A DNA stretch of 64,000 nucleotides, taken from Lepisosteus oculatus (taxonomy: Eukaryota; Chordata; Actinopteri; Semionotiformes; Lepisosteidae). Position numbers and translations under genes: made by a program. Shown in pieces: positions 25,431 to 64,000 of this stretch. The DNA is taken from NCBI RefSeq assembly GCF_040954835.1, contig NC_090698.1, forward strand, positions 6,694,501 to 6,758,500, given 5' to 3'. Positions within the stretch are counted from its first letter, which is position 1. Each line of letters begins with the position of its first letter. Below the pieces are notes generated by a model. The model saw only the letters and a list, made by a program, of their open reading frames with translations. It had not been told where the DNA came from and did not search any database.

Positions 25431-25431
25431 T

Positions 25432-25815
25432 CTGTCACAGCCTGAAGGCCACACGGTGAGAGCTCTGAACACAGGTACCCCTGGGGTTCTCTCTGTCACA
25501 GCCTGAAGGCCATACAGTGAGAGCTCTGAAGACAGGTACCCCTGGGGTTCACTCTGTCACAGCCTGAAGGCCATACAGTGAGAGCTCTGAACACAGGTAC
25601 CCATGGGGTTCACTCTGTCACAGCCTGAAGGCCATACAGTGAGAGCTCTGAACGCAGGTACTCCTGGGGTTCACTCTGTCACAGCCTGAAGGCCACACAG
25701 TGTGAGCTCTTCAGACAGGTACCCCTGAGGTACACTCTGTCCCAGGCTGAAGGCCACACAGTGAGGCTCTGCACAGAGGTACCCCTGGGGTTCACTCTGT
25801 CACAACCTGAGGGCC
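25432..25815. repeat. 61-bp minisatellite, about 6 copies
   Basis: Units start CTCTGTCACAGCCTGAAGGC with 61-bp spacing (CCTGAAGGC at 25441, 25502, 25563). They include GAGAGCTCTGAA and GGTACCCCTGGGGTTCAC. Confidence 0.9.
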
Positions 25816-26420
25816 ACACAAATATAGTCAATGTTAAAGTTTGTTTCAGGTTACACTGCAGTTGTAAACATTACTGCAGGTTCTGGTTTGTTTTTATATT
25901 TTTTTGTGATTGCAAACTCTCCCTTTTATACTAGTTACCATGAATGCATTGTGATATTATTTAATTTCTTTATAATCTTAATATTTAAGTCAGTAGTTTT
26001 CATATACTGTAGGTCATGCCAATAAAGCATTTTCCAATCAGAGACAGACAGGGGGCGGTAGTGAGGGCAGACGTAGTGAGAAGGGAAGAGAGAAACACAG
26101 ATCTGGGGAGCAGATGAATTCATCAGCAGAACCCCAGAAAGGGGAGAGTGCGATGGGGGTGTGAGAAAGGCAGCCGCCTGAACTGCAGACAGAGCAAGGG
26201 AGACAGAGTGGGAGAGACTGAGTGGGAGGGAGAGAGAGAGAGATTGCGCTCTCTCCTGGGTGATGGAAGCGTGGGCTGGGGGTCCTGGGAAAGTTTAAAC
26301 AGAAAGGGAGAGTGAGAGAGGGAGGCAGTCACCAACAGAGAGATGCACAGAGAGGCGGACTGACAGAGGGAGAGAGAGTGAGGGGGAGAGGAGAAGACAT
26401 TCCAGTTCCCTTTTGGCAAG
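25816..26420. other. Intergenic, partly purine-rich, no gene recognised
   Basis: AT-rich to about 26,030, then a GA-rich tract to 26,400. The frame on the - strand (26,123-26,518) is a low-complexity shadow of the GA tract. Confidence 0.5.
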
Positions 26421-31537: not shown

Positions 31538-32107
31538 TAATAATAATAATAATTATAATAATAAATAATTGCTTACGTAAATAGCGCTTTTCTGGACACT
31601 CCACTCGGAGCACTTTACAGGTAATGGGGATCCCCTCCACCCCAACCAGTGTGCGTCGGCACATAGTGCGCCAGAACGCTCACCACACACCAGCTCTCAG
31701 TGGGAGGAGAACAGAGTGATAAATCCAGTTCAGAGATGGGGATTATTAGGAGGCCATGATTGGTAAGGGCCAATGGGAAATTTGGCCAGGACGCCGGGGT
31801 TACACCCCTACTCTTTTCGAGAAACACCCTGGGATTTTTAATGACCACAGAGAGTCAGGACCTCTGTTTTACGTCTCATCCGAAGGACGGCGCCTGTTTA
31901 CAGTATAGTGTCCCCGTCACTATACTGGGGCATTAGGACCCACATGGACCGCAGAGTGAGCGCCCCCTGCTGGTCCCACTAACACCTCTTCCAGCAGCAA
32001 CCTTAGTGTTTCCCAGGAAGTCTCCCATCCAGGTACTGACCAGGCTCACACCTGCTGAGCTCCAGTGGGTTGCCAGTTTTGAGTTGCAGGGTGATATGGC
32101 TACTGGC
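31538..32107 (-). mobile_element. 5S-rRNA-headed SINE (SINE3-like), near full length, - strand
   Basis: Read on the - strand, the head runs from 32,107: GCCAGTAGCCATATCACCCT, later CTGGTCAGTACCTGGATGGG, tracking 5S rRNA with its internal promoter. The body follows, then a tail CAGAAAAGCGCTATTTACGT and an AT-rich simple repeat at 31,538-31,565, an L2-type ending. The head lies about 330 bp upstream of the vwa5a start codon. A sister copy in the same orientation is at 43,333-43,880. Confidence 0.85.
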
Positions 32108-38400: not shown

Positions 38401-41400
38401 TGAGCTGTTCTGCTCTTTAGATCTCGGCTGGGTGGTAGAGCCTGTCAGTCAAGGTGATCAAAGTGCAGGTTTCCTTCCCATATGAAGACCTCACTGTAGA
38501 GCCTGTGCTGTTGATGCAGAGTTCCTTCTTAGGACTGTGGATAGACCTGGAAATTCCAGAGATCTGGAGCTTGGGGTGAGGTGGGGGGGGAGTCTAGGAT
38601 GGGAGGACCCTCAATCGGAGTGCCGATACCCAAACAAAGGAAGAGCAGGAACTAGGCGCTCACTTCCACTCACATGTGGAAGGAAACGAGGAACATGCAG
38701 GGAATGTACAGTAGAAGGAGAGCAACAGCAGATCTGAAACGTTCACTGGGAGAAGCGGTTTCTCCTGGCTCCCCCAGCCTGCGTGCGGCATGTTGCCGGT
38801 GCAGTGTCTGCACTGTTTGAGTTTTGCGCTGTGCTGTCCAGGTGCTTCACTTTCGGGATTGGGGAGGGCGCCTCTTCCAGCGGCTTCCTCTCGGACCTCG
38901 CCAGAGAAACCGCGGGCCTGGCCCAGTTTGTGACCGCCTCCGATCGCCTGCTGCCCAAGGTCAGACGCGGCTCTATCAGCTAAATCAGCTCGACGCTGAT
39001 TTAGAACCCCCCCCCAGAATCATGTCTAAACATCGCCATCGTAGGATTTTGAGTCAGCCCTCCTCTCCTCTCTGTCCCTTTCCCTCTCTTTCCTCTCCTC
39101 CTGATCCTGTCTTTCAGGTGGTGCAGTCTGTGCGCTCTGCGCTGCAGCCTGCAGTGCAGGAGATCTCCGTGCGCTGGGATCTGCCCCCCGGTCTGGAAAT
39201 CACCCCCTTGTCACCCGCACAGTCGGTGGTGTTCTGGGGCCAAAGGGTGCTGCTGTATGCCCAGCTCAAGGGACAGGTGAGGACAGTCTAAGGGCTTCAA
39301 TACTGAAAGCCTCCAGGAATTGAATTTTCTTTATCTCTTTTCCAGTGTCTTTGCATTGTTACAGTACACTCAGTGTGTGTTAAACTCCTCTGTCTCAGTG
39401 TGACATTGTTACAGTACACTCGGTGTGTGTTATACCCCTCTGTGTCTCAGTGTGACATTGTTACAGTACACTCGGTGTGTGTTAAACCCCTCTGTGTCTC
39501 AGTGTGACATTGTTACAGTACACTCGGTGTGTGTTATACCCCTCTGTGTCTCAGTGTGACATTGTTACAGTACACTCGGTGTGTGTTAAACCCCTCTGTG
39601 TCTCAGTGCGAAAGCAGTGCTGTGGGATCTGTGCACCTCCAGTACGCGCTAGGAGAAGATACGGTCCAGAATGACCTGACCTTCAGCCTGACCCCTCAGA
39701 CACGCACAGGGTGAGACCAGCTATCTGTGCCTGTAACCCTGTCCCCAGCTCTCTCACTTACTGCCCTTTCCTTCTTGAATCTCTCTGTGTGCTGTAGGTA
39801 ATTAAGATTGTTACAATGATTTCAAACAAGAGAAGTTTCGATTTGACCCATCTTGCCCATTTTGCTGTGTGTAGCTTCTGTTTATTTTTGGTTCTCACCC
39901 ATGGTGTTGACGATTCCCATTGGTCCTTCAAGAAATGATCTGATACTCAATGCAGCCCTAGAATCTACTTATATTCTGAGAACTAAACAGAAAAGAAACA
40001 CAGGTAGTGGGTCCGGAGGTGTTCCTGCTGCACTCTCTCGGAGAAATGTCTCTTGTTGCCCTGTCCTGTTTTAAAGGAAGTGATGCTCGTGTGTACAGGA
40101 GTAGAGTAGGATTTTACAGATGATAATGGAGGCTTCCTGCTTTTCTGACGACTTTCTCACAGGCTAATTCTGCACAGACTCCGGGCTCGCGCCGTCATCC
40201 GCGCACTAGAGGAAGAAGTAAATTCTTTGAGCCGGCATGAGCTCAGAGGCCAGAGAAAGAAGTTTGTTGAGCTGGGTGCTCAGACAGGAGTCGCCTCAGG
40301 CTTCACCATCTTCATTGCGGTCGACAAAAAAACCAAGCAGCCACTGCAGAAACTTCCATGTATCAGAACGTTCAGGTCCTACGTGCGCTGGACATGTGAG
40401 TGTGATGGAGAGGAGGCTGTATCTCTGGGTTTCCTGTTTGTTACATGTTGTGAGAACCCCATGCTCCCTCACAAAGGTTCCTAAGTGACTTAGGTAGTGG
40501 CTGAGCTCTGCTATTGTAATGCGCTTGAGTCAGATGCTGTGCAGCGAGACACTGTATTGGTGCAGTTCTGTATTCTGTGAATGGGGTTTAGTAATTAGTC
40601 CTTTTTTTTCTTTTTGCTTTACCAGCTGAAGGAGTTGCAATCTCCTTTGAGGAGGCAGCAGAAGGTATGTTATCACAGAGCAGGATGATGGTAATGCCGA
40701 TGACGCTAGGGGTGAACCCATTCAATCAGGCCTACACTTGCATTTCTGTGTGTCTGTAGACTCTGCTTGCAATGACCAAGTAGAGGAGATTGAGTGGTTG
40801 CCCGTCTGACCAGGGACTTGAAACCCTGCTGCTGGGAGATGCAGTGACACAGACTGACTCGCGATAAGGAAGGCCCGAGGTTTGGCCAGGATGAGCTGAC
40901 AGTGTACAGTTTAGAGGAGGTGTGCATGATGGCTTCAACCCTGCCTTCTGGTTTTAAGACAGTCTGAGCTCCCAAAGGAGAATCGCAAATATTTTACATT
41001 GACCTTGAAACTAAACTGCCAATCTTGTTCAGATTTCAGGAAAATTAATTTTCTTTCTGACAAGCAAATTTAAAATTCTTTTTTAATCTATTATTGGTGT
41101 GGTTTCTAAATAGTTTAATGTGTACTTGAAGAGTACTCTAAACCTCATTTCTGTTATAATAATAGTGGTGTAGAGTTCTATACTTAAATCATAGTAATAC
41201 AACGTTGGTTGAAATAACACCATATGTGAATTTGATTTTAATCTTCTTCTGGTGCGTTCCGGATGCATTTTGTAAATCATACTCGTCACTTTTTCTCAAG
41301 AGTAGACATTGTTAAACCAGCCTGAATTTAGTTTGATTTATTTTTTCTTGTTTTCTGAAATCCATTAGCAAAGAAACCAGAGGAGTCGGACAGTACGTCC

Positions 41401-43332: not shown

Positions 43333-43880
43333 AATAATAATAATTATAATTGCTTACACTTATATAGCCATATATATACACTTATATGGACACCCAAAGA
43401 GCTTTACAGGTAATAGGAAATCCCACTGCCACCACCAGTGTGCAGCCCCACCTGGATGATGCGACGGCAGCCATAGTGGGCCAGAATGCTCCCCACACAT
43501 CAGCTATCAGTGGGGAGGAGAGCAGAGTAATGAAGCCAGTTCAGAGATGGGGATTATTAGGAGGACATAATTGATAAGGGATAATGGGAAATTTGGCCAG
43601 GACGCCCCTACTCATTTCGAGAAACGCCCTGGGATTTTTAATGACCACAGAGAGTCAGGACCTCGGTTTTACGTCTCATCCGAAGGACGGTGCTTGTTTA
43701 CAGTATAGTGTCCCCATCACTATAGTGGGGCATTAGGACCCACATGGACCGCAGGGTGAGCGCCCCCTGCTGGCCCCACTAACAGCTCTTCCAGCAGCAA
43801 CCTTAGATTTTCCCAGGCTCACGCCTGCTTAGCTTCAGGAAGTTGCCAGTTGTGAGCTGCAGGGTGATATGGCTGCTGGC
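43333..43880 (-). mobile_element. 5S-rRNA-headed SINE (SINE3-like), near full length, - strand
   Basis: Begins on the - strand at 43,880 with GCCAGCAGCCATATCACCCT, then a 5S-like head partly deleted relative to the copy at 31,538-32,107 (the GTACTGGATGGGAGA part is missing). The body carries words such as GTTAGTGGGGCCAGCAGGGG and CCAAATTTCCCATTATCCCT, and the tail ends TATAAGTGTAAGCAATTATA. It starts about 220 bp past the vwa5a stop codon, in the opposite orientation. Confidence 0.85.
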
Positions 43881-45228: not shown

Positions 45229-48200
45229 TTACTTCAGCTGGCAGATGGTAACTGAGGAGCCCACGCCGAACCCTGCACACAGCGGCTCAGTGAATGTGGC
45301 GTGGAACGTGTGTATGAGCCTCATCGATTCGGAGACGTTATAAAATGACATACTGCCACCTGCATAGTCTACGTACACCCCTATTCTAGTGGCACTGTGG
45401 GGGGCAGCTATATCTTTGACCACCTGATTGTGCCAGGCAGAGTAACCCGTCTCGGAGCAGAGCAAACTCCAGGATTTATCATTGTATCCAAGGAGACAGA
45501 GGGGAGTCTTGCCCTTTCGCCGGATGCTTTTGTACGCGACGCCGATGGTGAACTCTCCACTCCCCTCGGCCTCCCAGTAATACCGGTGTCCCGAGAGCGC
45601 TTCCTGGCACAGCACCTGGGAGTAGCAGTCAAATCTCTCCGGGTGATCGGGATAAACCTGGAGATCTCTCTTCCTTATCGCTCTCCTGTTCCCGGCGGAC
45701 AGAGAGAGCTCCCGGAACGCCGTACAGGGGTCGAACGAAAGCCGACAGGAGTCTGATCGGAAAGGAGAAACCAAAACCATTGAGAAGAGCGAGCGAGAGA
45801 GAATATTTCAATCCTCGAGTCAGTTACGTGTGTATGGCTGGGTGTGCACACATCGACTGACTCGCTGAGGTCCTGCCATTGAAGCAGGAACAGCTGTAGA
45901 GGGAATGTTTTTTTGTTGTTGTTGTTGTTTTTCGTATAACTATACATATATTCATTTATTACTGATTTCATTCATTGAGCACGGATACAATAGGGGTACA
46001 GCCATTCACCGTTTGACATGTCTGCACTGGTACAGAACCTAGCAATCAGAAAACGGGTGAAACTGTCTTGAGAATTAGCATACAGTACCGAGGCCCCCAT
46101 GACCAAATAAAGGCTAACCTCGATAATCAGCCTAAATAATGCAGACTACAGCAAAACGACTGACTTTGAAAAGGGAATGAATGTCCGGAAGGAGTATTGT
46201 AACCAGCTTGAGATGCTTCTCCGGACCTCTAACTAAAAGAAACCGAGAACCAGCAGTGTCATCGACTCCTTTCGAACTGGGATCCTATCGCAGCCACGCA
46301 ATCCGTGGTGTCGTAACTCTTCCGTATCTGATATTGGCCTATATCTCGGCTTCTTCCAAAAAAAAGAAAACCTGGATGAGATCCTTGGATCAATTAATGG
46401 CTAATCACCAAAAGGGCAAGTTGCCTCTTGACTGTAACCTTTCCTATGTTAAGTCAGTCTTCTGCCCCTCAAGCTCATCCCCCGCAATTCCCAAACCACA
46501 CAAAGTGTCTCCTTTCATGCTTCAGACACACACCCACCAGCAACAGAAATTAAAAATGCACAAACTCACACTTGAGGAAGTCTGTTCTGGTCTGGGGATC
46601 AGGAAGTGGCCCTTGCCCAGGAGCTGGGAGGAAGGGAAAGAAGGCGGAGCTCAGGCTGGTGATGTCACGCCCGTCACGCCGACAGGCGCATCACTGTGAT
46701 GGTTCGGTCCGGAATAGAGGAAGCTCATTAACCGGAACCATTTTCTTTCATAGCTCTTAAAAATCTAATTCTTCATTCAGTGAAGAGTTTCAGAAGTAGC
46801 TGGACTGGGGTTACCAAAACTGGGACTGAGACACCCTGCTGTAAATTGTTAAATACCAAATGCTCCTTGTCGGGGTTTGGGAGGAGCTCCGAGCGTCTCT
46901 GGTTCAAATCAATATCTCTCTGAGGGAAGACCAGCATGAGGTCACTTTGAAAACATACTAATTCCCTTTTGGGTGAGCTTAGCTGACCTCGAAGGGCAGG
47001 TATCCCCCAATGTGGTCTCTACAAGAGAAAAAATGATGTGTCTAGTCTGGAGAGTTGCAGGTAACGCATGAGGTTGTGTGATGAGCAAAGGGGGAATATC
47101 TTTTGTTGCTGCTCCTCTGAGTGAGAGCAGCTGCCGGGAGTGATCTTGGAATAACATTCCCATTTAGCTGTGAGGCCCTCTAGTGGTGACCAGCGGAAAT
47201 TCGGCTCAAGAGTCCAAAAATTGCATTATACTTTTTTTTGCATTCTTAAAAATATTTAGCATGTGTTCCTGTTTCTTGCCTCCATGACGTTAATCTATCG
47301 TATGCTGGTTGAGGATTCTGAGTATCTGGGACTTTGAGTAGATAAACTCTGCCCTCATCCTTCTGTCTACCCTGGTGGTGTCTGTGCTCCTAGTGACCCA
47401 CACTGCTCTTCTGCAGGAGGGGCTTGTACCTGGTTAGGAGTCGGGGGGCAGGTGGTACCATGCACTTTGCTCCAGTAGTTACGCGAGCGCGTGCGTCTGT
47501 GCCCTGCATACATGGTCCCAAACGTGTGCGCAAAGTTCTTTCCAATATCTGTTTCCTGATGTGGTCCAGGTTACCTGTGTCCATTATAAACCATGCACAC
47601 CTGAGCGCTCAACAGATGAAGTTTCTTTACACAAAAGGTCTCCTGTTGCTGCTGATTCTTATGAACAGTATCTGAACGTCTCTGGGCATTGAATCTTGAC
47701 ATGTTCCCCAAACCATGAGTGGGACACAATCAAGACCGCTGATAAAAGCACTTGCATTTGAATGAGGTTCAACAAATGCTTGGTTACAACTTTTGATCTG
47801 ATTGACTCAGTTTTGCGATACAATTACTGTACTGTGCACCGTGCTGTCCAGGCCCCAGAGAGTTTCTGAAAAAAAACTGTTCAGATAGGAGCAAAAAAAC
47901 ACTTGTCCTAAACCTGACTTTGGTCTCAAAATCCCAAGTAGTGTGTGAATGCTAACCCTAACGCTACCTGGGGTGTCACCTGAGCATTTCCGTGATCTAC
48001 TGTATGATTTTCTAAACTGCGCACGTCACTGCATGGCCTTACCTTTTAAGAGTTTCTCGCCAGTTCTTGGTATCTGGAGGTAGACTGGAGTCTCATCCAC
48101 TGCAAATAAAATAAAAAAATGACTAAATATGTGGAACAACAGGAACAGAAGATGGTTTTGAATGTCTCCCACCTCTTTTGGAGATCTTGGCCAATTCCTT

Positions 48201-51133
48201 TCTGCAGATGTCCTCCAAATACTCCTTCATGTCGGTGACACCTTTGCTTATGACCCCCAAGGAGAATTCTGGATTTAGAACCACCTTGGGCACAACTCCT
48301 TCATGAGGGACACACAGGGAAGGGTAATTCTAGCACGAGAAGGAGAACAGAGGGCTACAGGTTATCAAGGAGAGGAGACCACTTGGCCCATCTTGCCTGA
48401 TTGCTTCTCAAGGATTCCTGGGAATGTACTTTAACAGCATGACTGGGCAGTGCACCAGCAACCCCAAGTGTGAAGAAATGCATGTTCTTAAATGTCCTAT
48501 CACCTATTCTCCACCTGTCCTCTGCTTTGTGGATAAAACTGCACACTCCTGGAGGTTTGAAAGGACACCCACACTCTCCAAAGGCTAAGGACCCGGAAAG
48601 CAGATCTAACTGCGACCAATTAAATCAGTCACAGACTGATGATGTCATTCAGAGACCAGGTAGGACGCGAGCCGGAAGACCGCACAGCGCCGCGTGACCA
48701 ACGATGAGGATTACCTGCAGGAAGTGAATGTGATCCTCTGTGTCCAGAACGAGCCTGAGCTCCCCCTCTCTCTTGCGAAGACCCATGATCTCCTCCTCCA
48801 GGCGCTGGACGTGTCCCTCCACCTGGACGATGGCCGCCTTCTCGTTCGCTGCGATGAGGCTATTGGCCTCACTGCAGAGTCTCTCCGTGGACCGGATCAT
48901 CTCTGCGAAGATCTTGCCGCTGTCTGCCATCACCCGTCGCGCAGAGCTCTAATGTTTACAATTTAACAGAGGTTTACAATTTTTAACAGTTCTTTAAAAC
49001 TTCAAGACTTTAAACCCCAATATAACCTTCTCTTAGACTTCTTTTTTTTACCTGAACAGAAAAGCTGCTTCAGTCTGTCTTCGTGCCTCTAAGACCTGGC
49101 CTTTCTCTAATAAAGGTTTGCGTTTTAAATACTACAGGAGCCTCAGGTCATATGCAGCTGGTCCTCTCTTGTGTCCTTGATCTCCGCTACGTATTCAAGT
49201 GTCCTACCGATCCTGCACGATTTCATTCATAGTATTTCTTTCAGGATTGCTAGAGGCCAGACTCGACAATGATGACCAAATCAGTATTAGGTCTGGACTG
49301 AATTGTATTCTGCAGCAGCTCTGCAGGGGTTGTGAAATTCATCAACTGTTTACAGCTTTCAAACGTGGCTGAAGGAAACCCTTCACACTTCCCCTTGGAT
49401 TTAATCTGTCTTTCCATCACTAATCTCCAGTCCTGCATCCTTCCATTCTCCTTTCCTGCCCACAGCCCACCTGCGCTCCCTCTTTTCCCTGTCCACAGCT
49501 GAGGCTCTAGGTGCCAGACTCTGTGTGTCGTCCTCTGTGGAGCGGACCTCTTGCCTGAGAGCCAGGTGCATCCCCAGCCATGGCTATAAAACAGAGCTGA
49601 ATCCCTGCACACGTACTTTGAGAGACTCTGCTTCGTGCCTCAGTTCTTCCAGCTCCTTCGCTCTTTCCTGGATTGTCTGTTGGACTTCGGCCTGCGTAAT
49701 CGCCAACACCTTCTGTGGAGGAGCACAGGAGGCAGAGCAACCTGTTTACTTCAGGGGACAGACGTCAGGGGACAGACAGCCGGGGCTGGAAAGCTGAACG
49801 GAGACCTGGCTCCACCGTGTGGGTTGACAGAGGTGTGACATGTTAAATAAAAACCCTAGCAGGGGGTTCTGAGACGATGACCCACGACAACAAGATATCT
49901 GATGCCTTCACCGAAGAAGAGATCTGTGGGCAGATGCATAAAACACCTCAAATGAAATTTAGCCTTTTAAGTGTTCCTGAAATCCAAGGATGTCCTTAAC
50001 TAAGGGAATGTGCGTCTGTGTTTGATACCTGGCGTACTTGGTGCAGCTGACCCTGAGAATTTAGTGATGTTCAGTCTCCTGAGCATCTTAAAAAAGAGGA
50101 TGTTGTATTAAAAAAAAACACATCTCCAGTCCTTGAAAAGTGGGTGTTTCCATTTTTTTTAACATCAGTGGCTTTGAATGAGGATGCCCAGTTTAAATTA
50201 AATCACACTGTTACTGTTATATATTTAGTATAACGGTAAGACAGTCTTACCGTTATACTAAACTAATAAAAAAGAGAAGATTTCTTCATTCTTCTCCCCA
50301 GTCTACCTCAACGGGGACTATCCCTTTGCTAGTTGGTGTTGACAATAGAAACTTTAAGAATTACTTAAATAGTATTGTAGGGTATATTGATTCTCAATTA
50401 ATGGAATTGGCTTTTCAATTATTGAGAGAAGAACTCCTTTCCCGTGTTTCCACAGGGCTGCCCAGTCTTGATCCCGGAGGGCCGGTGTGCCTCTGAGCTC
50501 AGTCGGCTTGTTCTCTGCTAACACTTCTCTCGGGTGCTTGGGCAGCCGGGAAGCTCTTACCTGTCCCTCGGTTCGCTCTTCCTCCGCGGAGACGACGTCG
50601 TGGTCCCTGTGCTCCCGCACGGCGCACAGCGCGCAGACGCACATCCGATCGGAGCGGCAGAAGAGCTCCAGCCTCTTCTCGTGCTGGGGGCAGACCTTGC
50701 GGGCGAGGTGGCCGGTTCCGTCCACCAGCTTGTGCCCGCGGAAGGCGGGCGAGTCGTAGTGGGGCCTGACGTGGGCGTCGCAGTAGGACGCCAGGCACAC
50801 CAGGCAGGACTTCACGGCTGTCCGCTTCCTGCCGGTGCAGAAGTCGCAGGGCACGTCCCGCCGGGCGGGCGGGAAAGGAACGAGCTCCGGCCTCGGCAGC
50901 CTCTCCGGAGGGGGGGTCGGGGCGGCCCCCCGCAGCGCCGGCCGGGGGGTGAAGGTGGCCCTGCACTGCGGGCAGCTGTACACCCCTATGGGATCTGCCT
51001 GAGCCCAGCTGACCTCGATGCACTCCAAGCAGAAGGTGTCCCCGCAGGCCAGCGTGACCGGCTCCCTCGGCCAGTCCGCGCACAGAGGACAGCGGAGCTC
51101 CTCGTCGGACAGCCAGGCTCCGGAGCCTGCCAT
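45229..51133 (-). CDS. TRIM-family RING E3 ligase (RING, B-boxes, coiled coil, PRY/SPRY), 6 exons
   Basis: Predicted cytoplasmic ubiquitin (or ISG15-type) E3 ligase of the fish TRIM16/TRIM25-like group, often tied to antiviral immunity. Exons on the - strand: 51133-50561, 49712-49617, 48948-48715, 48329-48173, 48099-48043, 45752-45229; sum 1,641 nt, 546 residues. Exon sizes 96 and 234 are those typical of this TRIM class. Exon 1 encodes a RING from C15 (CPLC...CGDTFCLEC...CPQC) and two B-boxes (CDFC..., KVCPQH...HRDHD). Exons 2-3 give the coiled coil (ERAKELEELRHEAESLK, GHVQRLEEEIMGLRKREGEL). The last exon is PRY/SPRY (LSFDPCTAFRELSLS, YPDHPERFD, GYNDKSWSLLC, GVYVDYAGGSMSFYNVS). The RING His position is Asp32. 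The usual 23-bp micro-exon seems fused to the next exon. An in-frame ATG further upstream (51337) exists; I prefer MAGSGAW because family members start close to the RING. Exact orthologue not assignable. Confidence 0.88.
48360..48560 (-). repeat. Dispersed repeat, 'TTCTTTACACAGAG' family, reverse copy
   Basis: In a TRIM gene intron: GGAGACCACTTGGCCCATCT, TGCCTGATTGCTTCTCAAGG, GTGTGAAGAAATGCATGTTC. Diverged but in the family order. Confidence 0.55.
50224..50262. repeat. Perfect 19-bp inverted repeat with 1-nt spacer
   Basis: The arm TTTAGTATAACGGTAAGAC (50224-50242) is followed by a single A and then its exact reverse complement (50244-50262). It lies in the first intron of the TRIM gene. As RNA it could form a tight hairpin. 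It may be joined ends of an old DNA transposon. Confidence 0.85.
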
Positions 51134-53999
51134 GCTCAGCAACGGCTGCAGAGACGAGACTGCGGCGCGGCAGACAGAGCCCGCCTGTATTTCAGCAGCC
51201 CCGCAGTTTGGTAAACAAGCTGGCCGATGGGGGTGCGATAAAGATAAACCGACTCGGCAGAAAGTCTTTGAGAACAAAGTTGTTGTGCTGTGCAAAGGAA
51301 AAAATACAGTTCTTTCATGAACGCTGGGGTTTTTCACCCACGGGATACAGATTCACCATACATCAGATTGAAAACACTACATCGAAAAAAATGGATTGTT
51401 TCTGCCAGGTTTAAGACAGTCGAACGTGCTCTCCTGACGAGTGCGTGCCTGATCTACACCATCTAAGAAACGGGTAACGTTCATGGGCAAAAATATTAGG
51501 AACCCCCAATCTAAGGATCTCTGTGAGCCAGCCCAGCGGACAGTGTTCCATCACCTTCCCAGGCTAGACCCATCCTGGGATCTCAGTCCTGTGGAAAACT
51601 TCTAGGACCAGTAGAAGGTACACCTCTGCACCACACATGACCCCTGGTCCCAGCCCCACCGCCTGGAAGAGTCTCACCACTCCCTGTCCTCCCTGAGACC
51701 CAGGGTCTGGGTGCTCGGCCAGCGAGTACGACCGATCCAAAGCGCTCGTCTTTTCCGTCTTTCCTCCCTCGTATATCTCTTTTGTTCAAAGGTGTTTTCG
51801 TTCCCCTGAATTTTGTACCACCGCTGTAGTGGCAGCCGGCAGGTTATAGTGACTCGTCATACAAAACGCTTGACGCAGCGAGAAGCAGCCTGTCTGCGGA
51901 TGCTTGAACACGAGTTTGACGAGTCTGAAATAAGAGGCGTTTCATTCCTGCGACACTTGCCTGCTGGATTATCTGGAATGAGGGGGAAACAAAATCTCGT
52001 ATTTAGGGATCGTGCTTTAAAGAAATGCATTCAAGGCGAGATCACCTCTGTACCCTGTCTGCAGTGGCTTATGCTCTTAGGGGAAAGGAATACTTCCCTA
52101 TTACAGCTCCAGGCAAGGGAGAGATGGGATACAACTGGCATGAATTCATGACTTTCGAGTACACTTTCCCTGTGTGATGAAACCAAACAGAGGCAAAACC
52201 AACACAAGGGGCTGAGACTTTCTGTAAATAAATAGTCTCGCCTGCATGACCTTCATGCCGTGTTGCTGGGTTGCTGTTGTTTATGGTATCTGTAAGACAT
52301 GCAGCATCAGCACTGTACCGCTGCAGGCTGTGGGATTACCAAGCACCTAGAGGGGACGTTTTGTTTTCACCAACAGCACGCCCTTGGCGAAAGATGTGGG
52401 GTGTGTGATGCAGTTTTCCATAAAACAAAGGAATGATAGGCTGCATGGAAGGGATCGGTCGATGTCTGGTGTATAAAAACATGCCTGTTAGTTAAGAATT
52501 CCCAGGAAGGCCATTGGTTTTGGGGGGCCCTCCCTCCCCTTTAGGGTTCAGTTTCTAGCCTGTGACATCCCTGTAACCAGATCCAACCGAGTCAGAGAAC
52601 AAATTCTCATTGACAGTGATGACGCAGAGACTTGTTTTTACAGTATTTAACGGAGCTGAGCCGAGTAGCTCACTCAAGGTCACCTACAGCACCTGCTCCA
52701 GAGCTCTAACCACTACTCCAAACCACTACGTTTGACCGTTATCCCAGTTAGAAGTGCGGCTAATTCTAAAATAAGGCCAAGTGCCACAAGTCTGCTGATG
52801 TGATCCTTGGATCTTCAAACCACTAGCAGCTGGATGAACAAGTTGAGCTGAGCGACCCTCTCTAGTATCTGATCGACTTTCTTGTTAGCTTTTTAAACTG
52901 TAAGAGATCAAGAACCTGTGGCTATTCTTTTAGTTAGGATATTGTATATAAAATTAGGAACACTTGTTTTCTTCCCGTCAGCATAGATATTTGGAGCATT
53001 TGCAATCAAACTTACTTATCGCAGACAGCATGTAGCTGATCACACGTAAGGACAGAGGGCCTGATGGTGACTCATTTCAGAGATCCACTGCAAAAAGACT
53101 CAAGTCTCCTTAAAAAGCCCCTAACAGGACCGTCAGTGATTTATTACAAAGAGGGAACTTCTCTTAGGAAAAATGTATCCCAGTTACATCCTCCCCATTC
53201 TCTAGATACTGTGCACTTATAAGATTCCTAGCCATCGATTTTGCTTCAAATTGTAACTGTAACTTAACTCTTCCCTTTTGTAAACCCCTTTTCCCAGCCT
53301 TTTGTTTAACCCCTTCTTTAATGTGCAAAAATCAGTATGCTGTTACATGCTTTAACACAGAAACTCTTAAAAGGGTGGTGCTACAGTATCTGAACTGAAA
53401 AATCTAAACTGTACTGTGTTTGAGGGCAGTCCTGACCCAACCATTTAACAACAGAATCTTGTGGATCAAGATTCTCCTTAATGCCTGTGGCTGATGTTTC
53501 TTTTTTGTAGTCTACTATTCATGAATTTGTTTCTACCTTAACATATTCACAAACAACAAATGCCAGAGTGCGAGGCAGACAAGATACACGGCCGTTGCAT
53601 GAAATAAGAACTCGAGGCCTTGTTTTCTTAGCAACCTGCACATTTATTTGAAGGGAAAGGAAACAGTTCTTGGCAGGGCTGCCTTAAAGATCAATAAAAA
53701 CTTGATCAAGACCAAGCTGGGGAAACAGGTGTTAGCTCTGAATCTGCTGGTTTCTCCCCATAGAGCAAATGACCGAGGCAGTTCGCATGTCTGTCTGTGT
53801 GCCTGCAGAGGAGAGGAATTCGAAATCCCTGGAATTCTGTAACGGATACTGTCTCCATTGAGAAACTCGGACTTTCTGCAGAATTATACAGAGAGGGCAA
53901 TGAAGGATGGGAAAACGATAATAAACGTTCTCCAGAAAGTTTCGTCCGGACTTTGGCTTGCCCCTGCCTCTCCACTCCACACGCCCCGGCCAGTTTCGC
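51134..53999. other. Intergenic: TRIM promoter side and ZNF 3' flank
   Basis: Upstream of the TRIM start codon and downstream of the - strand zinc-finger gene. Small frames only. TGACTCA at 53068. No RNA gene or promoter element could be fixed with confidence. Confidence 0.45.
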
Positions 54000-55127
54000 T
54001 TAACCGACGACAACCGTTCTGACGCCGAGCCCCGCCTGGGGCGCCTCGGCCGCGTGCACGCGCTGGCGGTGGCGCTTCAGGTCCGAGGACGTGATGAAGC
54101 GCTTCCCGCAGGACGCGCAGGGGTGCGGCTTGTCCCCCGTGTGGATCTGCTGGTGCCTCTTGAGGTTCCTGAGCTGGCTGAAGCTCTTCCGGCACGCGGC
54201 GCACTCGAAGGGCTTGGCCCCCGTGTGGGTGCTGTGGTGCCGCCTGAGCTCGGCCAGCGTGATGAAGCTCTTCCCGCACCGCGCGCAGCAGTAGGGCTTC
54301 TCCCCCGTGTGGGTGCGCCGGTGCCTCTTGAGGGAGCCCAGCTCGTTGAACCTCTTGCCGCAGTCGGCGCAGCTGTAGGGCCTCTCGCCGGAGTGTGTGC
54401 GCAGGTGCGACTGTAGGTGGCCCACCTGCCGGAAGCCGCGCTGGCACTGGGCGCAGCGGAAGGGCTTCTCGCCCGTGTGGGTGCGCTGGTGCCGCTGCAG
54501 GACCGCCAGGGTGGTGAAGCTGTTGCCGCACACGGGGCAGTGGAAGGGCGTCTCGCCCGTGTGGACCTGGTAGTGGCGCCGCAGGTTCCTCAGCCGGTTG
54601 AAGCCCCTGGCGCACTCGGAGCAGCGGAAGGGCTTCTCGCCCGTGTGGATGCGCTGGTGCTTCCTCAGCTCCGACAGGGCGGCGAAGCTCCTGCCGCACT
54701 CCAGGCAGAGGTGGGGCTTCTCCCCCAGATGGACCCGCTGGTGCTCTCTGAGCCTTTTTGATTTGCTGAAGCTCTTCGCACACTGGCTGCAAGGAAAGGG
54801 CTTCTCTGCCGCCGGATCCATGCGGTCGCCCGGCTCTCGGCTTCCCGCGTCGCCACTGTCCTGAGTGGAACCTGTCCCGGGAAAGGGCAGCGTCTTACAC
54901 ACCCTCACGTCCTTGACGGGCAAGCCAAGGTCCGGGTCTGTGACCTTGGCAACACGAAAGGAGTCCTTCAGGAGCTCTCCCTTCGTATAGAGGAGCTCGG
55001 ATGTTTCCTCTGACTGTGCCGCACAGTCATGCTGGTGTTTCACCACTTCGCCGTCGAGAGGCGCGAACTCCTCTTTAATGTGGACCAGCACGATCTCTGA
55101 CACCTGTTGCATTCCAGGGTCAGCCAT
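54000..55127 (-). CDS. C2H2 zinc-finger protein, nine fingers
   Basis: Likely nuclear DNA-binding transcription factor of the large fish poly-zinc-finger class. The 375-residue frame starts MADPGMQQVSEIVLVHIKEE. The first 110 residues are acidic and unstructured, and the IKEE at 17-20 fits a sumoylation consensus. Nine C2H2 fingers run from C113 to near the end, all with CX2C...HX3-4H spacing and mostly TGEKP-type linkers (LGEKP, TGETP, SGERP, TGAKP and TGDKP are variants). The last finger ends HRQRVH, followed by a short tail ending VRTVVVG. No KRAB, SCAN, BTB or THAP domain is visible. The ATG may lie in a second exon: GTGAACAGGAG just upstream follows a plausible acceptor, so a 5' non-coding exon is possible. 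It is divergent from the THAP-ZNF gene 4 kb away, which has a similar VVCIKEED motif. Exact orthologue unknown. Confidence 0.85.
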   Translation of the reverse strand: MADPGMQQVSEIVLVHIKEEFAPLDGEVVKHQHDCAAQSEETSELLYTKGELLKDSFRVAKVTDPDLGLPVKDVRVCKTLPFPGTGSTQDSGDAGSREPGDRMDPAAEKPFPCSQCAKSFSKSKRLREHQRVHLGEKPHLCLECGRSFAALSELRKHQRIHTGEKPFRCSECARGFNRLRNLRRHYQVHTGETPFHCPVCGNSFTTLAVLQRHQRTHTGEKPFRCAQCQRGFRQVGHLQSHLRTHSGERPYSCADCGKRFNELGSLKRHRRTHTGEKPYCCARCGKSFITLAELRRHHSTHTGAKPFECAACRKSFSQLRNLKRHQQIHTGDKPHPCASCGKRFITSSDLKRHRQRVHAAEAPQAGLGVRTVVVG

Positions 55128-55190
55128 CTCCTGTTCACCTGTGAACGAACAGGATTTAGCAACTCAGTGCACTTGCAGAAGCGCCTTTTC

Positions 55191-56245: not shown

Positions 56246-59039
56246 TTATTATTTTAACACTGCGATTTTGCATTATTTTAAAGGCAAATGGTGATAAAAT
56301 GTGTGGAACCCAGGGGGTCTTCAACTTGAGTAACAGAAATGTCGAAGTCCTAATTATTATCAAAATAATTCATACATTACTTTAGAATCCATAGTTCAAT
56401 GGACATAGATGGTAGAGAGCCGGACTAGAGACAAACATGTTTGAACAGTGCAGGCGATTTGAAACTGTTACCTCTTTAAAGTCATTCCATAAAGACTGCG
56501 TGGACTTTGCATTCCTGTAAAATAATATGCAAATATATTTACATTAATAAAACATCTTTGTACGTCTGGCTATTTGCAGATACAGTTTGCTAACTAGTGT
56601 ATACGGGACTCTGCTGTCAGTTATATTTACTTTACATTCTTTATATGTCATACCCAGCTGCACAATCTCTCTTCACTTATACTTGAAAACAAAAATCAAG
56701 TTTTTCCATTTATTCCCTCATTCATTTTTTTACAATGGTGAGAGGTTGCACAGTTCCAGCCGCAGTTTATGAAACTAGAGGGCTTCCAAATATAACGCCG
56801 AATTTAAATTAGCCGATGTTGCTGGTTAAATTAAATAACCGTAGTTTGGCGCCCAAGAACGTTTACAACTACGGACATGAAAAGAGACTATTCAGTTGAT
56901 CCACGTAAACTTTGAACTACGTTACAGATAGATCTGTTGCTGGTATTTTAAGTCCTCACCTTCTGAAAGACACAAGGACAGCCTCCTCTATCTTTGCATC
57001 TTTGTTTTGGCGCCCGACCACTGAATTCCGTCCCCCGAGCAGTAATCGCTCTGGGTAACTGGTTCCGCGTTATTTAGTTCCTAAGAGCAACTTTGCGGAC
57101 TCCTTGTTGTAAATCTCCATTATTAAATTTTAATTTTAATGTGTATTCGTTATTTATTAAGGTTTAAAAGGCAAGCATTGATACAAAATGTTTCTCCATT
57201 GAATGATCACTTTTTCGTTATCCATGTCACGAATACATTGTACAGTAGGTGTGACAACTTGGGATGCGTGGATTGGGGATACGAAAAGCTCTACCGTGGT
57301 GGCGCAATGGCACAGGGGTTGGCATTAACCGTAAAGGTGGTTAGGGACTGCGATTCTACCTTACCAGCAGGTCCTGACGTCTGGACGGTGAGGTAATGTA
57401 CTCGCCGCGGAAGAGGGCGACTAGGATATACTGTACAAAGTGTAGTTTCAAAGTTTCAAATTCAATGGGAATTTTACCGATGTGAGATAAAAGCCATTTT
57501 GAGGTAAACGCCTACGAACAAAGACCAATGTGTCTGAATGATAATAAGCAATCGTGACGCCAAAGACGAAACCCACAGCTCGGAACCAATATCCATCACG
57601 CCGGGGTGCTGGAGGGAAGACGTCTGTTGCTGGAACCTGCAGTGTAAACCAAGGTATGATGAGGGGCGTAAGAAATAAACAGGTAAACCCTTATAAGTTA
57701 ATAAGAATAATAAAATAGTGACTAAGGATGTATTATTTTCAGTAATAAATGGAATACGCATTATAACAAGTACGGTATGAGTTTTAAGTTGTGTACTTTT
57801 ACTATCTGCAAAAAAAACAGCCGTATTGAGAAAGTGCTTACATATGAATAGTAGTCCGTGATGGGCATTTAGGTTCTGTTTTCCGCAGATACTCCGAGTG
57901 AGTTTTCTAGCTCCAACAGAAAGTTATAGTTTCCCCGTATTAGCTCATAACTACCAGTGCCGCCTGCAGCTTTGAAACCGTCCTCGATTGCCTTGAGAAC
58001 CCTGTCGATCAGTGGTGTCACTTGTGCTCCAATCTGCGTGCAGAACTATTCCTAGCTAATATTGTACTTCATATAAAGTATATGTTACAGTAATTTGTAG
58101 TAAGACGACAGCAAGTTGTGAGGCAGGTAGATACATTCATTGATCTGTACTTTTCAGATAGTCTTCAATTACGTCTTCCTTTGATCAAGGCTTAAGATTC
58201 TTAATTCTTTTAACTTGTGTTGTTTTTTTTACCGTGCTATGAGAACAACAACTCTATCGTAGTTTCTATTCTTTGCAACGTGTACAGAGCTGCAAAAAAC
58301 ATCAGGAAAGAGGGGACCAAAACAGAACACAATCTTGTAAAAAGGGTCAGGTTAGCACCCGTGCTTCTAACTCTGTCGTCTCTATTGAAGTATAATACTC
58401 CCTAGCTGTTGGACAGTCATCTCATTTTTTAATGAAAATTGTGAAATGAAAACCGTCGATGTTTATGATGATAATTCTGTGTTAGCACCTTCCATGCAGC
58501 AGAATAGTTGAATAAATTATTTAACAGACTGAACATTACGTGTATATTAGTCTGAAACCATGTGGAAGTGGAATTTAACCAATGGGACTGGGACTAGCAC
58601 CCCTGCTGTAATGTCTTTAATGAGAGTGTGATATACCTGTGGGCACCTCACAACAGGAGGTTTGAAAATTGGTGGGTCCAGACCAACAAACACACCCCAG
58701 TGCCTTTATTGGCATCTCTGCCAGATTCTTTCAAACAGAACCTCAAAAAGTCCCCAAAAGTCCCCAGTCAGGCAATTAGCACATACAGGTATTCCCCCCT
58801 CAGGCTACAGCCACCCAGTCCCACAGACCAACGCTGGAAATGGTCTATTCCTGGTTCTTATAGAGTCACCTGACCAATTGGCTTCCTGCAGCTGGTCAGG
58901 TGACAGAGCAGCTGCTCATTCCCCCAGAGGAATCTAGGAAATGTGGTCCCTATAGCACTGTGCTCTCACAATAGCAAAGCAAGATGTCAGGACCCCTGTA
59001 CATCATCTCAGTGAGAGCTGCAATCAGATTCTTCTTAGA

Positions 59040-59130
59040 GATCCCATCTCTCTCCCAGTACTAACCGGGCCCAACCCTGCTCAGCTACTGCGGTCTAATG
59101 AGATGAGGACACAGGGTGGCGGCGCTAGGT
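59040..59130 (-). mobile_element. 5S-rRNA-like SINE head fragment, - strand
   Basis: On the - strand CATCTCATTAGACCGCAGTA, GCTGAGCAGGGTTGGGCCCG, GTTAGTACTGGGAGAGAG follow 5S rRNA across its internal promoter. Only about 90 bp is kept, so it is a relic and not a 5S gene. Confidence 0.6.
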
Positions 59131-59294
59131 GGAATGTATGTGACTTTAATTTTTGTGTTTGCCTTTCACAGGAGGCAGATCAAAGGTTGAACTGGTTGGC
59201 GGAGTGTCTAGCAAGCTAAGATCTCCTGTCAATTCCCATTCTGATCAACTGTGAGTTTTTTTTTTGTACCCGGATAGAGAAGACAGATTTCACA

Positions 59295-62200
59295 ATGTCT
59301 TCAGGCTGCGTTGCAGAGAATTGCAGAAGGTCAACCAAAGACGGCGTCGCGCTCTTCTTTTTCCCGAAAGACCCTCGCATGTGCAGCCTTTGGAATGACT
59401 TTCTGAGGACGAGACAAACCGGCTGGAGGGGGCACTCCAAGCGCAGCAGATTGTGTTCAGTGCATTTTCAGGATGATGCATTTGAGCTCTCCTCTCTGCT
59501 CAAGTTTAAGCTGCACTTTACAAATCGTCTGAAACTGAAAGAGGATGCCGTTCCCACAATTCACTGCCCTGATGCTCTTTCTGTGTCCTCGCCTGAAAGG
59601 CTAGCTGCTGTCTCTGCTGGAACATCAAAGAAACCTCTAAGAATAAAAGCACCTTCTACGAGGGAGGTTGTTTTGCAAGTAAGTTTTAAGTAACAGTGTT
59701 TAATCATGTGAATTCAGAAATTGTATGGAATGTCTTTTGCATTTTCCTTTTGTAGCACTTGCTCTATTGCTTTCATAGTGTTCCTTACACTCCCATTTGT
59801 CACTCAGTTGACCCCATTAACCGGATGATTCTACATTATGAAGTCATCAGTAGAAAGCTCATTGAGATCTATGGTGAGTGAAGTGCCTCTGTTGCAGGGG
59901 ATGAGGCACAAAAGCAAAGAGGATGAAGGAGCTTCTGATGCCGGGCCTGAAACCACACATACCCACATCTCTGATGCCTTCGAGGGGGAAAAGAAGAGTA
60001 AGCCTTTCCTTTCACACTTGAACTATAAATGTGAGCAGAAAAGGCTGACAGTTCTCTTGAGTGTGAAACAGAGACGATTGCCATCAGCCTGGACAGAGTC
60101 AGCCCAGTGAGCTTCATCAACAACGCAGGAGCAGAAGAAAGGCTATAGATGAGAGGAGGCTGTCTGGCCCATGTAGTCCATTGCTTGTAGCTCTGGTTGT
60201 TCTGTCTCTCTCATTATGGCTGCGTTACTTGTCTCTGACCTTGTGCTGAAGAGTGAAGAATTTCTAAATCAAACGCTGCTCTAGGGCCTTGCTGAAGGCA
60301 GAGGTGGACCAGAATGTGTCAATTCAGACACCTTTTAAAGTTTACAGTCCACAGACTTCACTTCCACTGAGTGCATTAGGGATATTCATGAACGCTGCAG
60401 CTCACTACATAGCTGTGGCAACAGCCGTTGGCCTAGTGGGCCTATATCTTCTGGAAAATCTGTGAACATGTGGTAGAATCTATGTTGAGTTGCATCTGTA
60501 ATAACAGTACATCTGGTGTTGTGATTGTTTAATATTTAAGGACAGCAGTGTATGTACATGTTTTTTAATAATTCTTTTTGAAAATGGCACATGTTTATGG
60601 ACTGCTCTGGCTACTTCTTCCTCAATAGCATCTCTGACTGGCGAATCGGACCCTGCGACAGACGAGAAACCAGCATGGTCTTCATCTGTGTCCTCCCTGC
60701 AAACCACCCAAGCGATGTCACTGTAAGTCAGATTAATATGTTGTTCTTCTGAGCCGAAGCTGAGTTTGCATTGTAGTCTGCTATTAGAAATCAAGGCGTA
60801 TGTGCCACACATGAAGGGATTCATCTGCTTGTGAGGCTTGGTGCCCTCTGTCCAGAATCTTGCAAGGGTTCTGACTTTGTGAATTTGCATTCCTTTTCTC
60901 AGTCAAGGATAGTGATAGTTGTCTAAAAAACAGGACAGCTTTCTTTTTATTTCTACAGGCAGTTCTGTATGTGTGTTCTATACAGCATCACCATTTCTGT
61001 TCTTGTAGGTGCCCAGGTGAGAGACTTTCCAAAGCAGATCCACAGCAAAGAGAGAAGGCAGGTCTCGTTTGCGGCATGGAGGAGAGCCCTTCACGAGGCG
61101 CCCCCAGCGTTGACCCGGGGTTTCCAGAAGTGGCTGTGGTGTGTATTAAAGAAGAGGACTGTGAATCTGAGCGCCAGGGCGACGCGGGGGTAGAGACCTC
61201 GGCCCCCTTGAGAAGCGGATTTAACTGCCCCGACTGCGGGAAATCGTTCTCACTGCTCAGGAACCTTAAGGTGCACCAGCGGATCCACACCGGAGAAAGA
61301 CTGCATCACTGCGGCGTGTGCGGGAAGGCGTTCACCAAGCCCTGGGACCTGAGGGTCCACGAGCGCGTTCACACGGGAGAAAGGCCCTACCGCTGTCCCG
61401 ACTGCGGCAAGGACTTCAGCCAGCTGTGGCACCTGAAGAAGCACCAGCGCGTCCACACGGGCGAGAAGCCGCACCTCTGCGCGGACTGCGGGAGGGCCTT
61501 CACTCACCTGGGCTCCCTGAAGGAGCACCGGCGCATCCACACGGGCGAGAAGCCGCACCTCTGCGCGGACTGCGGGAGGGCCTTCAGTCACCGGGGCTCC
61601 CTGAAGGAGCACCGGCGCATCCACACGGGCGAGAGGCCGCACCGCTGCGCCGTGTGCGGCAAGAGCTTCAGCCACGCCTCCACCTTCCGGGAGCACCGGC
61701 TCGTCCACACGGGCCAGAAGCCCCACCGCTGCGCCGAGTGCGGCAGAGGCTTCTGCAAGCGGGGCAAGCTCAAGGAGCACCAGCAGCTGCACGCCGGCGA
61801 CAAGCCCTTCAGCTGCGCGGAGTGCGGGAGCAGCTTCACCCGCCTGTACCACCTGAAGCGGCACCAGCGCGCCCACACGGGTGAGAAGCCCCACCGCTGC
61901 CCCCACTGCTCGAAGAGCTTCAAGGAGCTGAAGCACCTCAAGGTCCATCAGGGGATCCACAGCGGGCGGAAGACCAGCCCCTGCCCCGTGTGCGGGAAGA
62001 GGTTCAGCCAGCCGGGCAACCTGCGCGTGCACCAGCGCATTCACACCGGGGAGAAGCCCTTCCTGTGCCCGGCGTGCGGCCAGAGCTTCCTTCAGCTGGG
62101 CACCCTGCAGGAGCACCAGAAGATCCACTCCGCAGCCCGGCCCTCCCAGTGCGCCGAGTGCGACCAGGGCTTCGCCGAGGCGGAGAGGCCCTACCGGTGC

Positions 62201-62860
62201 CTGCTCTGCTGGCACAGCTTCAGCGAGCCTGGCCAGCTGCAGAAGCACCAGGGGGCCCACCGGGAGAAGAAGCCCAACTGCTGCTCCGAGTGCGGGAAGA
62301 GGTTCAGCGAGCCGGGGAAGCTGAAAATCCACCAGCGCACTCACACGGGAGAGAAGCCTTACAGCTGCCCGGTGTGCGACAAGAGGTTCACTCAGCTGGG
62401 CACTCTGAAGGAGCACCGGCGCATCCACACGGGGGAGAGGCCCTACAAGTGCGCCGCGTGTGAGAAGAGCTTCACCCACCTGTCGAGTTTCAGGTCCCAC
62501 CGGCGGATTCACGCGCGGGGCAGCCCGCAGCCGCCCTCGCCGGGGCGCCCCCCGCAGGCGCCGAAGGAGAAGCGCCACCCTTGTGGCCAGTGCTGGAAGA
62601 GCTTCAGCGAGCCGAGGTACCTCAAGGTGCACCAGCGGATCCACACGGGCGAGAAGCCCTACAGCTGCTCCTCCTGCGGCCAGAGCTTCAGGCACTCCAC
62701 CTCCCTCAAGAGGCACCTCCGCGCGCACGGCGGCGAGGGGCGGACCGGCCCTGCATCTGGGCCCGTCGCCGGGGAGACGGACCGGAGCCACCCAGATCCT
62801 GCCCGAAGCACAGGTCCCTTCAAAACGGGAGCCGCCTACGAAATTGAGGTCGTAATATAA
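59295..62860 (+). CDS. THAP domain fused to C2H2 zinc-finger array, four exons
   Basis: Predicted nuclear DNA-binding protein with two unrelated zinc domains. Exons: 59295-59678, 59756-59873, 60629-60722, 61009-62860, all GT-AG; sum 2,448 nt, 815 residues with no stop. Exon 1 encodes a THAP domain: C5, C10, C54, H57, P24, W33, F58 and the closing AVPTIH at 85-90. Exons 2-3 encode a linker without recognised domain. Exon 4 opens acidic (VAVVCIKEED, a possible sumoylation site) and from C272 carries about 17 full C2H2 fingers plus one half finger (PSQCAECDQGFAEAE, lacking its His pair) and a proline-rich spacer before the last two. Fingers 4 and 5 are a near-identical duplication. The exon joins are predicted from phase and splice motifs only; two separate genes are the alternative. 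A further open stretch at 59,898-60,010 may be another exon, but no proper acceptor distance was found. Confidence 0.75.
60130..60310 (-). repeat. Dispersed repeat, 'TTCTTTACACAGAG' family, weak reverse copy
   Basis: In THAP-ZNF intron 2: GAGGAGGCTGTCTGGCCCAT then a diverged continuation. Assigned by the opening words only. Confidence 0.35.
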
Positions 62861-62989
62861 TGGCGAGGGAGGTGCAGGACTGAAGGTGAAGCTGATGGTT
62901 TGCTCGCGTGACGTTCCCCTGTGTGCTCAGCTGCTAGTAAAGTGTGGGGTTGCTGCAAGCTGGTGAAATGTACAAAATATGTGTAAAAG

Positions 62990-63257
62990 GAGAGGTGGCT
63001 CTGTGGCTAAGGATCTGCGCCTGTGACTGGAAAGTTACCGGTTCAAATCCCGCGGCCGGCAGAGGAATCCTACTCCGTTGGGCCCCTGAGCAAGGCCCTT
63101 AACCCCAACTGCTCCAGGGGCGCCGTACAATGGCAGACCCTGCGCTCTGACCCCCAGCTTCTCTCCCTGTCTGTGTCTGTGTCTCCATGGAGAAAAGCTG
63201 GGGTATGCGAAAAGACAAATTCCTAATGCAAGAAATTGTAGAGGGCTAATAAAGAAA

Positions 63258-63290
<33 letters not shown>
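62990..63290 (+). mobile_element. tRNA-derived SINE, full length, + strand
   Basis: The tRNA-like head has an A box TGGCTCTGTGGCTAAGG and a B box GGTTCAAATCC. The body contains CCTGAGCAAGGCCCTTAACC and GACCCTGCGCTCTGACCCCC, and the element ends ATGCAAGAAATTGTAGAGGG, CTAATAAAGAAAC and a (TTA)n run at 63,258-63,288. It is the most complete of three copies in the window and lies 130 bp past the stop of the THAP-ZNF gene, so its AATAAA could serve as that gene's polyadenylation signal. Confidence 0.9.
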
Positions 63291-64000
63291 AAGAGTTCAT
63301 TTATCTGGGGCGTACCACCATCATTCTTTGTTGTCAAATTCCCGACACCTTTTTTGTACTGTTATAGAGAGGTAAAGGCATGCAGGGTCTTTTCTTGGCA
63401 AAAGGGAGGTAGAAGATCGCAGCTGGTTATCCACATCTGCCCTTGCGGTTTGAATTCCGAGGCAAGGAAATAGAGTTAATGTGCAGGTTGTGGGACTTTG
63501 TGAAAGTATTTATTTTTCTGTTCTTCTGACCGCTTCATCTGAGGAGAAGGAGGGCCTCTTATCAATTATGTGGTGTAAGTTGGCCCCCACTGAAAGTATA
63601 TGAGGAAGTACAGATGCAGCCATTCAAGAATAGCAATATTATGGACAATCAATTGACTTTTATATTTCAGAATATCACAACATGATCGATTCTAAGTCAT
63701 TTTTGATAGCAATGAATAGTCGCCTTCTTCCCTTCTGACAACGGTCCCTGCGTCCGCTTCCTGCTTCTATTGTGTGTGTGTGTGGGGGGGATTCCTTCAG
63801 AGATTTAAAAGGTTATTAATCATATCTTCGGTGTCGCATCTTACAAGTGCAGCTGATCTTTTGCTGCCTGGGTGGGTCAACTATCACAAAGCTTTAGAGA
63901 ACCTAACATTTCTATTATCAACAAATTGTAAATTTGTAATAGAGTAAATTTTTATAGAGAAATGGAGGCTGGACAGTATGCGTTACAATATAAACATTTG
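63291..64000. other. Flanking sequence, no gene recognised
   Basis: Mixed AT-rich sequence with a short (TG)n(G)n run near 63,770-63,790. Nothing else is recognised before the window ends. Confidence 0.5.

Follow-up and report, generated by a model that had tools for sequence, protein, structure and literature searches.

A probable two-module gene in Lepisosteus oculatus: a THAP exon ahead of a 17-finger C2H2 exon

In FiNZ-ZNF genes, a single N-terminal exon lies upstream of the finger exon, and FiNZ is described as unique to cyprinids in the accessible part of the article (PMC10547256). THAP in combination with other zinc-finger domains is known from the sea cucumber Holothuria glaberrima, for which the available portion of a survey defines a THAP-C class of such proteins and says that the class is absent from humans (PMC13228809). 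P-like elements occur in fish, and the accessible text on the medaka element Izanagi describes a degenerate THAP domain in three putative exons (PMC2820524). In the open-access literature, as far as titles and abstract starts among the matches listed go, no vertebrate protein with THAP and a C2H2 array is described.

Here, we discuss a locus of Lepisosteus oculatus that carries a THAP exon and a large C2H2 finger exon. It lies in a stretch of 64,000 nucleotides (contig NC_090698.1, positions 6,694,501 to 6,758,500), referred to as the window, the numbering of which is used throughout. The two exons are probably spliced into one host transcription factor carrying both modules. The architecture itself, THAP together with a C2H2 array, is already present in deposited vertebrate proteins and is not new.

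The THAP exon and the finger array

The features of the locus are as follows.

59295..59678, plus strand: THAP exon, with its ATG at 59295, a complete THAP domain (residues 5-90 of the predicted protein), and a phase-0 donor, GTAAGT, at 59679
59756..59873, plus strand: predicted small exon 2, 118 bases, acceptor phase 0 and donor phase 1, open in frame
60629..60722, plus strand: small exon 3 of the earlier model, 94 bases, doubtful
60903, 60908, 60959, 60963, and 61017, plus strand: same-frame alternative starts of the finger exon, from acceptor scores and splice paths
61009..62860, plus strand: zinc-finger exon with the stop codon, in an open frame that spans 60875-62860
61076..61078, plus strand: in-frame ATG, with a G at both -3 and +4, candidate start of a finger-only protein
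61145..61156, plus strand: IKEE motif, seen in the sequence
61226..62728, plus strand: array of 17 canonical C2H2 fingers, from motif and Pfam matches
62150..62194, plus strand: truncated finger inside the array (knuckle without helix), from the translation

The exon at 59295-59678 is a member of the THAP family. Its match to PF05485 covers the full profile (1-87 of 87) at 55.3 bits and E 1.1e-14 in the Pfam scan, above the curated cut-off of 23.9 bits, and the full-length scan of the joined 815-residue model gives the domain 49.9 bits. The original prediction of a complete THAP domain ending at a phase-0 donor is thus borne out. NCBIfam gave no match for this exon. THAP domains are recognized by their C2CH zinc ligands and an AVPTIF-type box. 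The zinc ligands C5, C10, C54, and H57, as well as W33, F58, and P87, are invariant across the THAP domains of the window and of P0079 and P0040, two vertebrate proteins discussed below. The closest relatives of solved structure are the human proteins THAP1 (2ko0, E 0.00042, 23.6 bits) and THAP2 (2d8r, E 0.0013, 22.0 bits); the AVPTI box of the window aligns to both, while AEPSI occupies that place in P0079. AlphaFold2 models of the exon, with a mean pLDDT of 42.9 alone and 45.0 with three sequences, are too poor to compare.

The donor at 59679 ranks at the 99.5th percentile among the GTs of the window, and the unspliced THAP frame reaches a stop at the fifth intron codon. There is no further copy of the exon in the 64-kb window, where the best other THAP match outside the exon has E 0.37 (tblastn). 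An SLWNDF identity within 56478-56534, on the minus strand and upstream of the neighboring finger gene, might mark another THAP exon in decay; with a tblastn E of 1.5, it was attributed to chance and rejected. No relatives were found in viral and prokaryotic contigs, as expected of an animal gene. No tRNA was found, and upstream of the THAP exon, Rfam gave one sub-threshold match only.

The finger exon holds 17 matches to C-x2-C-x12-H-x3-H and 17 Pfam zf-C2H2 stretches, and the approximately 17 fingers of the original prediction are accordingly found as 17 canonical fingers and one truncated one. The C, F, L, and H positions are conserved in the 17 fingers, and nine of the 16 linkers between them are of the TGE[KR]P type. 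Among 26 fingers, taken from this gene and its neighbor, the entropy at helix positions -1, 2, 3, and 6 is 2.77, 2.58, 3.22, and 2.32 bits, respectively, compared with 1.94, 0.39, and 1.42 bits at positions 1, 4, and 5; in the same set, variability is also seen outside the contacts (2.92 bits in column 3 and 2.60 bits in column 9). Tandem fingers with conserved linkers and varied contact residues, both expected of C2H2 poly-zinc-finger transcription factors, are present, and judged from the sequence the array looks like a working DNA-binding array. The solved structures that it matches, ZNF568 and a protein named Aart, give no help on function. The IKEE motif upstream of the array matches the SUMO consensus, and the neighboring finger gene has VHIKEE near its N-terminus.

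This neighbor is a second C2H2 finger gene, with nine fingers, at 54000-55138 on the minus strand (acceptor 55138, ATG 55127), and is divergent to the THAP-finger gene. The finger-exon DNA of the two genes is ~73% identical over 597 aligned columns. Between the divergent genes, the region 57000-57800 is CpG-rich (o/e 1.06), not GC-rich (GC 0.42), and is possibly the promoter of the minus-strand gene. Just 3' of the plus-strand finger gene lies an interspersed repeat (62997-63254) that recurs at 24618-24864 and, in its 3' part only, at 33594-33752; its tail supplies the nearest downstream AATAAA (63248). Further away, the window contains a TRIM-like gene on the minus strand (45232-51352; RING and B-box in 50357-51352, PRY-SPRY in 45232-45807) and, on the plus strand, a VIT domain match at 34080-34514 that fits the vwa5a-like gene of the original prediction. 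A 5S rRNA-like sequence on the minus strand (31989-32107; Rfam 45.4 bits, cut-off 38) is adjoined by, and partly held in, a repeat at 31652-32017, the other copy of which (43460-43817) is 89% identical; this repeat is probably a short interspersed element derived from 5S rRNA. The window also has several minisatellite arrays, the units of which were sized by self-alignment offsets; they lie at 4389-5034 (~31 bases), 18047-19204 (~58), 22911-23945 (~45), 25428-25820 (~61), 26427-27582 (~73), and 39354-39608 (~51).

THAP domains ahead of other finger arrays

When the THAP part of the joined protein was the query, no protein relative was returned at E≤0.001, and a 199-residue query against short proteins returned none at E≤5. 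The search at E≤0.001 was insensitive, because it missed P0079 and P0040 despite their lengths being within its range; an ortholog of the fusion was seen in neither search. Residues 199-480 as query scored 7,886 proteins, which shows that vertebrate finger proteins are well represented in the same database, and the best 120 were compared with the THAP exon. At least two of these best 120 of 7,886, P0079 and P0040, carry THAP ahead of a finger array, and since the set is ranked by finger similarity, 2/120 is not an unbiased rate. A small THAP profile recovers both and places no third protein among the 120 above its inclusion threshold; since it was built partly from P0079 and P0040, this recovery is a confirmation and not a discovery. 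The two proteins are automated gene models.

P0079 is annotated as "zinc finger protein 721-like" in the kelp perch Brachyistius frenatus, a teleost of the surfperches. Like the window protein, it has THAP N-terminal to a C2H2 array (39.5 bits over profile positions 1-64 of 87, plus 16 zf-C2H2 stretches), and the two THAP domains are 33% identical over 82 residues. The guess, made in the original prediction, that THAP-C2H2 pairings may exist among predicted fish proteins was therefore correct. P0079 differs from the window protein in its length (1251 residues), its two finger blocks, its repeated acidic segment, and its linker, and its THAP match, unlike that of the window, is partial and starts only at residue 80. 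A composite gene model is therefore possible. The N-terminal part of the finger exon matches P0079 weakly (E 0.15), and this match is not used as evidence.

P0040, the uncharacterized protein LOC142183329 of the frog Leptodactylus fuscus, resembles the window protein in having THAP at its very N-terminus followed by C2H2 fingers (20 zf-C2H2 stretches), but differs in that a KRAB box sits between the two. The THAP domain scores 54.9 bits over 1-87 when the first 109 residues are scanned alone, and is 26% identical to that of the window over 94 columns. The full-length Pfam scan at E≤0.001 missed it, whereas it detected THAP in P0079 and in the joined window protein, and PF05485 is listed among the precomputed domains of neither P0079 nor P0040. 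The miss in P0040 shows how domain tables may under-count the N-terminal modules of finger proteins, and with a fish and a frog protein lacking THAP in their precomputed Pfam tags, the THAP-finger pairing may be under-counted in vertebrates. Another protein of the set, P0054 from Anguilla anguilla, has a TINF2_N (shelterin-type) match (E 6.5e-20) before 13 zf-C2H2 stretches, likewise an unusual partner for a finger array.

Splice paths and readings of the locus

The original prediction joined 59295-59678, 59756-59873, 60629-60722, and 61009-62860 into a stop-free frame, and its arithmetic is reproduced exactly (2448 bases, 815 codons, one terminal stop). Allowing no more than two internal exons, we searched at three splice thresholds for paths that connect the THAP donor with the finger exon, and found three, five, and six in-frame paths at the strict, medium, and loose settings, respectively. 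The six paths give proteins of 761 to 819 residues, each of which includes THAP and the complete finger array. The four-exon chain, although in frame, is only one of the six, and it is seen at the loose setting only because its acceptor at 60629 is weak: with a score of 1.21, at the 91st percentile of all AGs in the window, this is the weakest acceptor among the paths (the donor of the same exon is at the 97th percentile). Exon 59756-59873 has an acceptor at the 99.0th and a donor at the 99.6th percentile. The open frames of the two small exons have no Pfam match.

The top acceptor is 60959 (score 11.1, 99.9th percentile), which allows a direct in-frame join to the THAP donor; acceptor 61017 scores 3.16 (95.7th percentile). 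Among the paths, we slightly prefer the one from 59756-59873 to 61017, because its phase-1 AG|GTGA junction resembles the start of the neighboring gene's finger exon (55138), and because a start at 60959 would turn the pyrimidine tract before 61009 into coding sequence. After the junction, the coding parts of this and the neighboring finger gene give no alignment at E≤100, and the idea that the two finger exons share an ancestral N-terminal part was therefore rejected.

How much weight can be placed on the frame fit was gauged with shuffled sequences. When 201 bases before ATG 61076 were kept, an in-frame path was found in 300/300 shuffles at each of the three thresholds, so the fit proves little, and as proof of one gene it was rejected. 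With 95 bases kept, such a path was found in 28, 144, and 216 of 300 shuffles (strict, medium, loose), and the observed number of paths (3, 5, 6) was reached in 0, 8, and 45 of 300; with everything before this ATG shuffled, 3/200 gave a path at the strict setting. The fit thus owes most to the stretch of open frame that precedes the first Met of the finger exon. The 67-codon stop-free run before that Met is unremarkable, as runs of this length occur at 9.5% of sampled window positions.

A fused transcript is nevertheless the best reading of the locus, because the THAP and finger exons are on the same strand, only 1.3 kb apart, with a strong phase-0 donor after the THAP exon and no AATAAA or ATTAAA between that donor (59679) and 61144. 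The single factor with two DNA-binding modules of the original prediction remains the most likely reading and has two precedents in P0079 and P0040; the exon chain given for it is one candidate among several. In the joined message, which we infer to exist, exon 59756-59873 would lead to the finger exon, perhaps at 61017. In its product, the finger array would determine the DNA target, and THAP would serve as a second DNA-binding or partner-binding module. At the usual three bases for each C2H2 finger, the 17 fingers could read up to ~51 bases, with fewer probably used. By analogy with KRAB, SCAN, and FiNZ finger genes, the protein would bind a long site, with repression as its most likely effect.

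CpG content bears on whether the finger exon has a promoter of its own. The observed/expected ratio is 0.58 at the 5' end of the THAP exon (59050-59500) versus 0.22 at 60700-61010; across the window, the median is 0.39 and the upper quartile 0.55, and the peak at the THAP end is accordingly modest. The finger exon is also CpG-rich, with ratios of 0.60-0.82 in 400-base windows between 61001 and 62800. CpG content therefore argues less strongly for a fused gene, and a promoter internal to this exon is possible.

An alternative that we consider unlikely is that there are two genes, a short THAP gene that ends before 61 kb and a finger gene that starts at ATG 61076 and has noncoding first exons. 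The G residues at -3 and +4 of this ATG agree with such a start, and the neighboring finger gene likewise has its ATG (55127) a few codons past the acceptor. Moreover, with an open frame already present before 61076, chance alone would be expected to leave the two exons in compatible frames, and a variant poly(A) signal, TATAAA, is present between the exons at 60024, in addition to the CpG-richness of the finger exon. Against two genes, however, speak the lack of AATAAA and ATTAAA between the exons, the low CpG ratio in 60700-61010, and the THAP frame, which stops at the fifth codon past the donor unless it is spliced. The same domains are, furthermore, joined in two other vertebrate proteins, as discussed above.

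More improbable still is a single locus with two products, the main message beginning at an internal start and encoding the fingers only, and an upstream promoter giving rise to a minor THAP-finger isoform. The acceptable context of both start codons (59295 and 61076) and the several alternative acceptors before the finger exon would permit this arrangement, with which the low CpG ratio just before the finger exon does not agree.

Origin of the THAP exon and comparison with known systems

The original prediction attributed the pairing to exon shuffling, perhaps through a transposase gene, a route that we find unsupported. No transposase family was found in 14 open frames scanned at 57.4-61.0 kb, between the exons or close to them, and none of the eight gapless inverted pairs of 14-17 bases in 57400-63400 resembles element ends. 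Pair I3 (15 bases) brackets the THAP exon, with its right arm inside the finger array, and pairs I7 and I8 each have one arm inside the THAP exon. With neither a transposase in the tested frames, nor end-like inverted repeats, nor a second exon copy, a P-element origin was rejected. That the THAP exon is the remnant of a P-element-like transposon inserted beside the finger gene, and no part of it, is very improbable, for although P-like elements such as Izanagi are present in fish, these same three features were not found in the stretches scanned, and the THAP frame of the window is intact, in one exon with a good donor, whereas the accessible description of Izanagi (PMC2820524) gives a degenerate domain in three putative exons.

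Given the P-like elements of fish, an older P-like origin of the THAP exon is possible. Returning to the fused gene, we suggest that it would have arisen when the THAP exon was acquired in front of a finger exon already equipped with a start codon, taking there the N-terminal place held by KRAB, SCAN, or FiNZ exons in other finger genes. The low identities among the THAP domains compared above (33% and 26%) are compatible both with one old family and with several separate captures. A tentative and rather unlikely extension is that vertebrate poly-zinc-finger genes have captured THAP repeatedly as an N-terminal module (in the window gene, in the surfperch, and in the frog, where it precedes KRAB), and that this was overlooked because profile scans of long finger proteins lose the THAP match. 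If so, a transposase-type DNA-binding domain would have been recruited to aim or anchor the finger array.

Compared with the THAP1 and THAP2 structures, the window domain shares the THAP family, the zinc ligands, and the AVPTI box; these structures are single domains, and the sequence match to them is weak. To our knowledge, neither THAP1 nor THAP2 has a C2H2 array. In THAP-C proteins of Holothuria glaberrima, as in the window, THAP is joined to another zinc-binding domain, but the partners named in the available part of the survey are zf-C3HC4_2 and zf-SAP30 (PMC13228809), whereas that of the window is a C2H2 array. A real joined message would mean that one protein combines two unrelated zinc-dependent DNA-binding modules, and would raise the question of whether THAP provides a second site or, like KRAB, brings in partners.

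The arrangement of the proposed gene is that of KRAB-ZNF and FiNZ-ZNF genes, with an N-terminal module exon upstream of one large finger exon. The joined window protein differs from KRAB-ZNF proteins in having no KRAB box, neither KRAB nor SCAN being detected at E≤0.001 in the Pfam scan. Should recurrent capture hold, a THAP-ZNF class would stand in parallel to KRAB-ZNF and FiNZ-ZNF. Rather than representing a new kind of protein, the window gene is likely one more case of module swapping.
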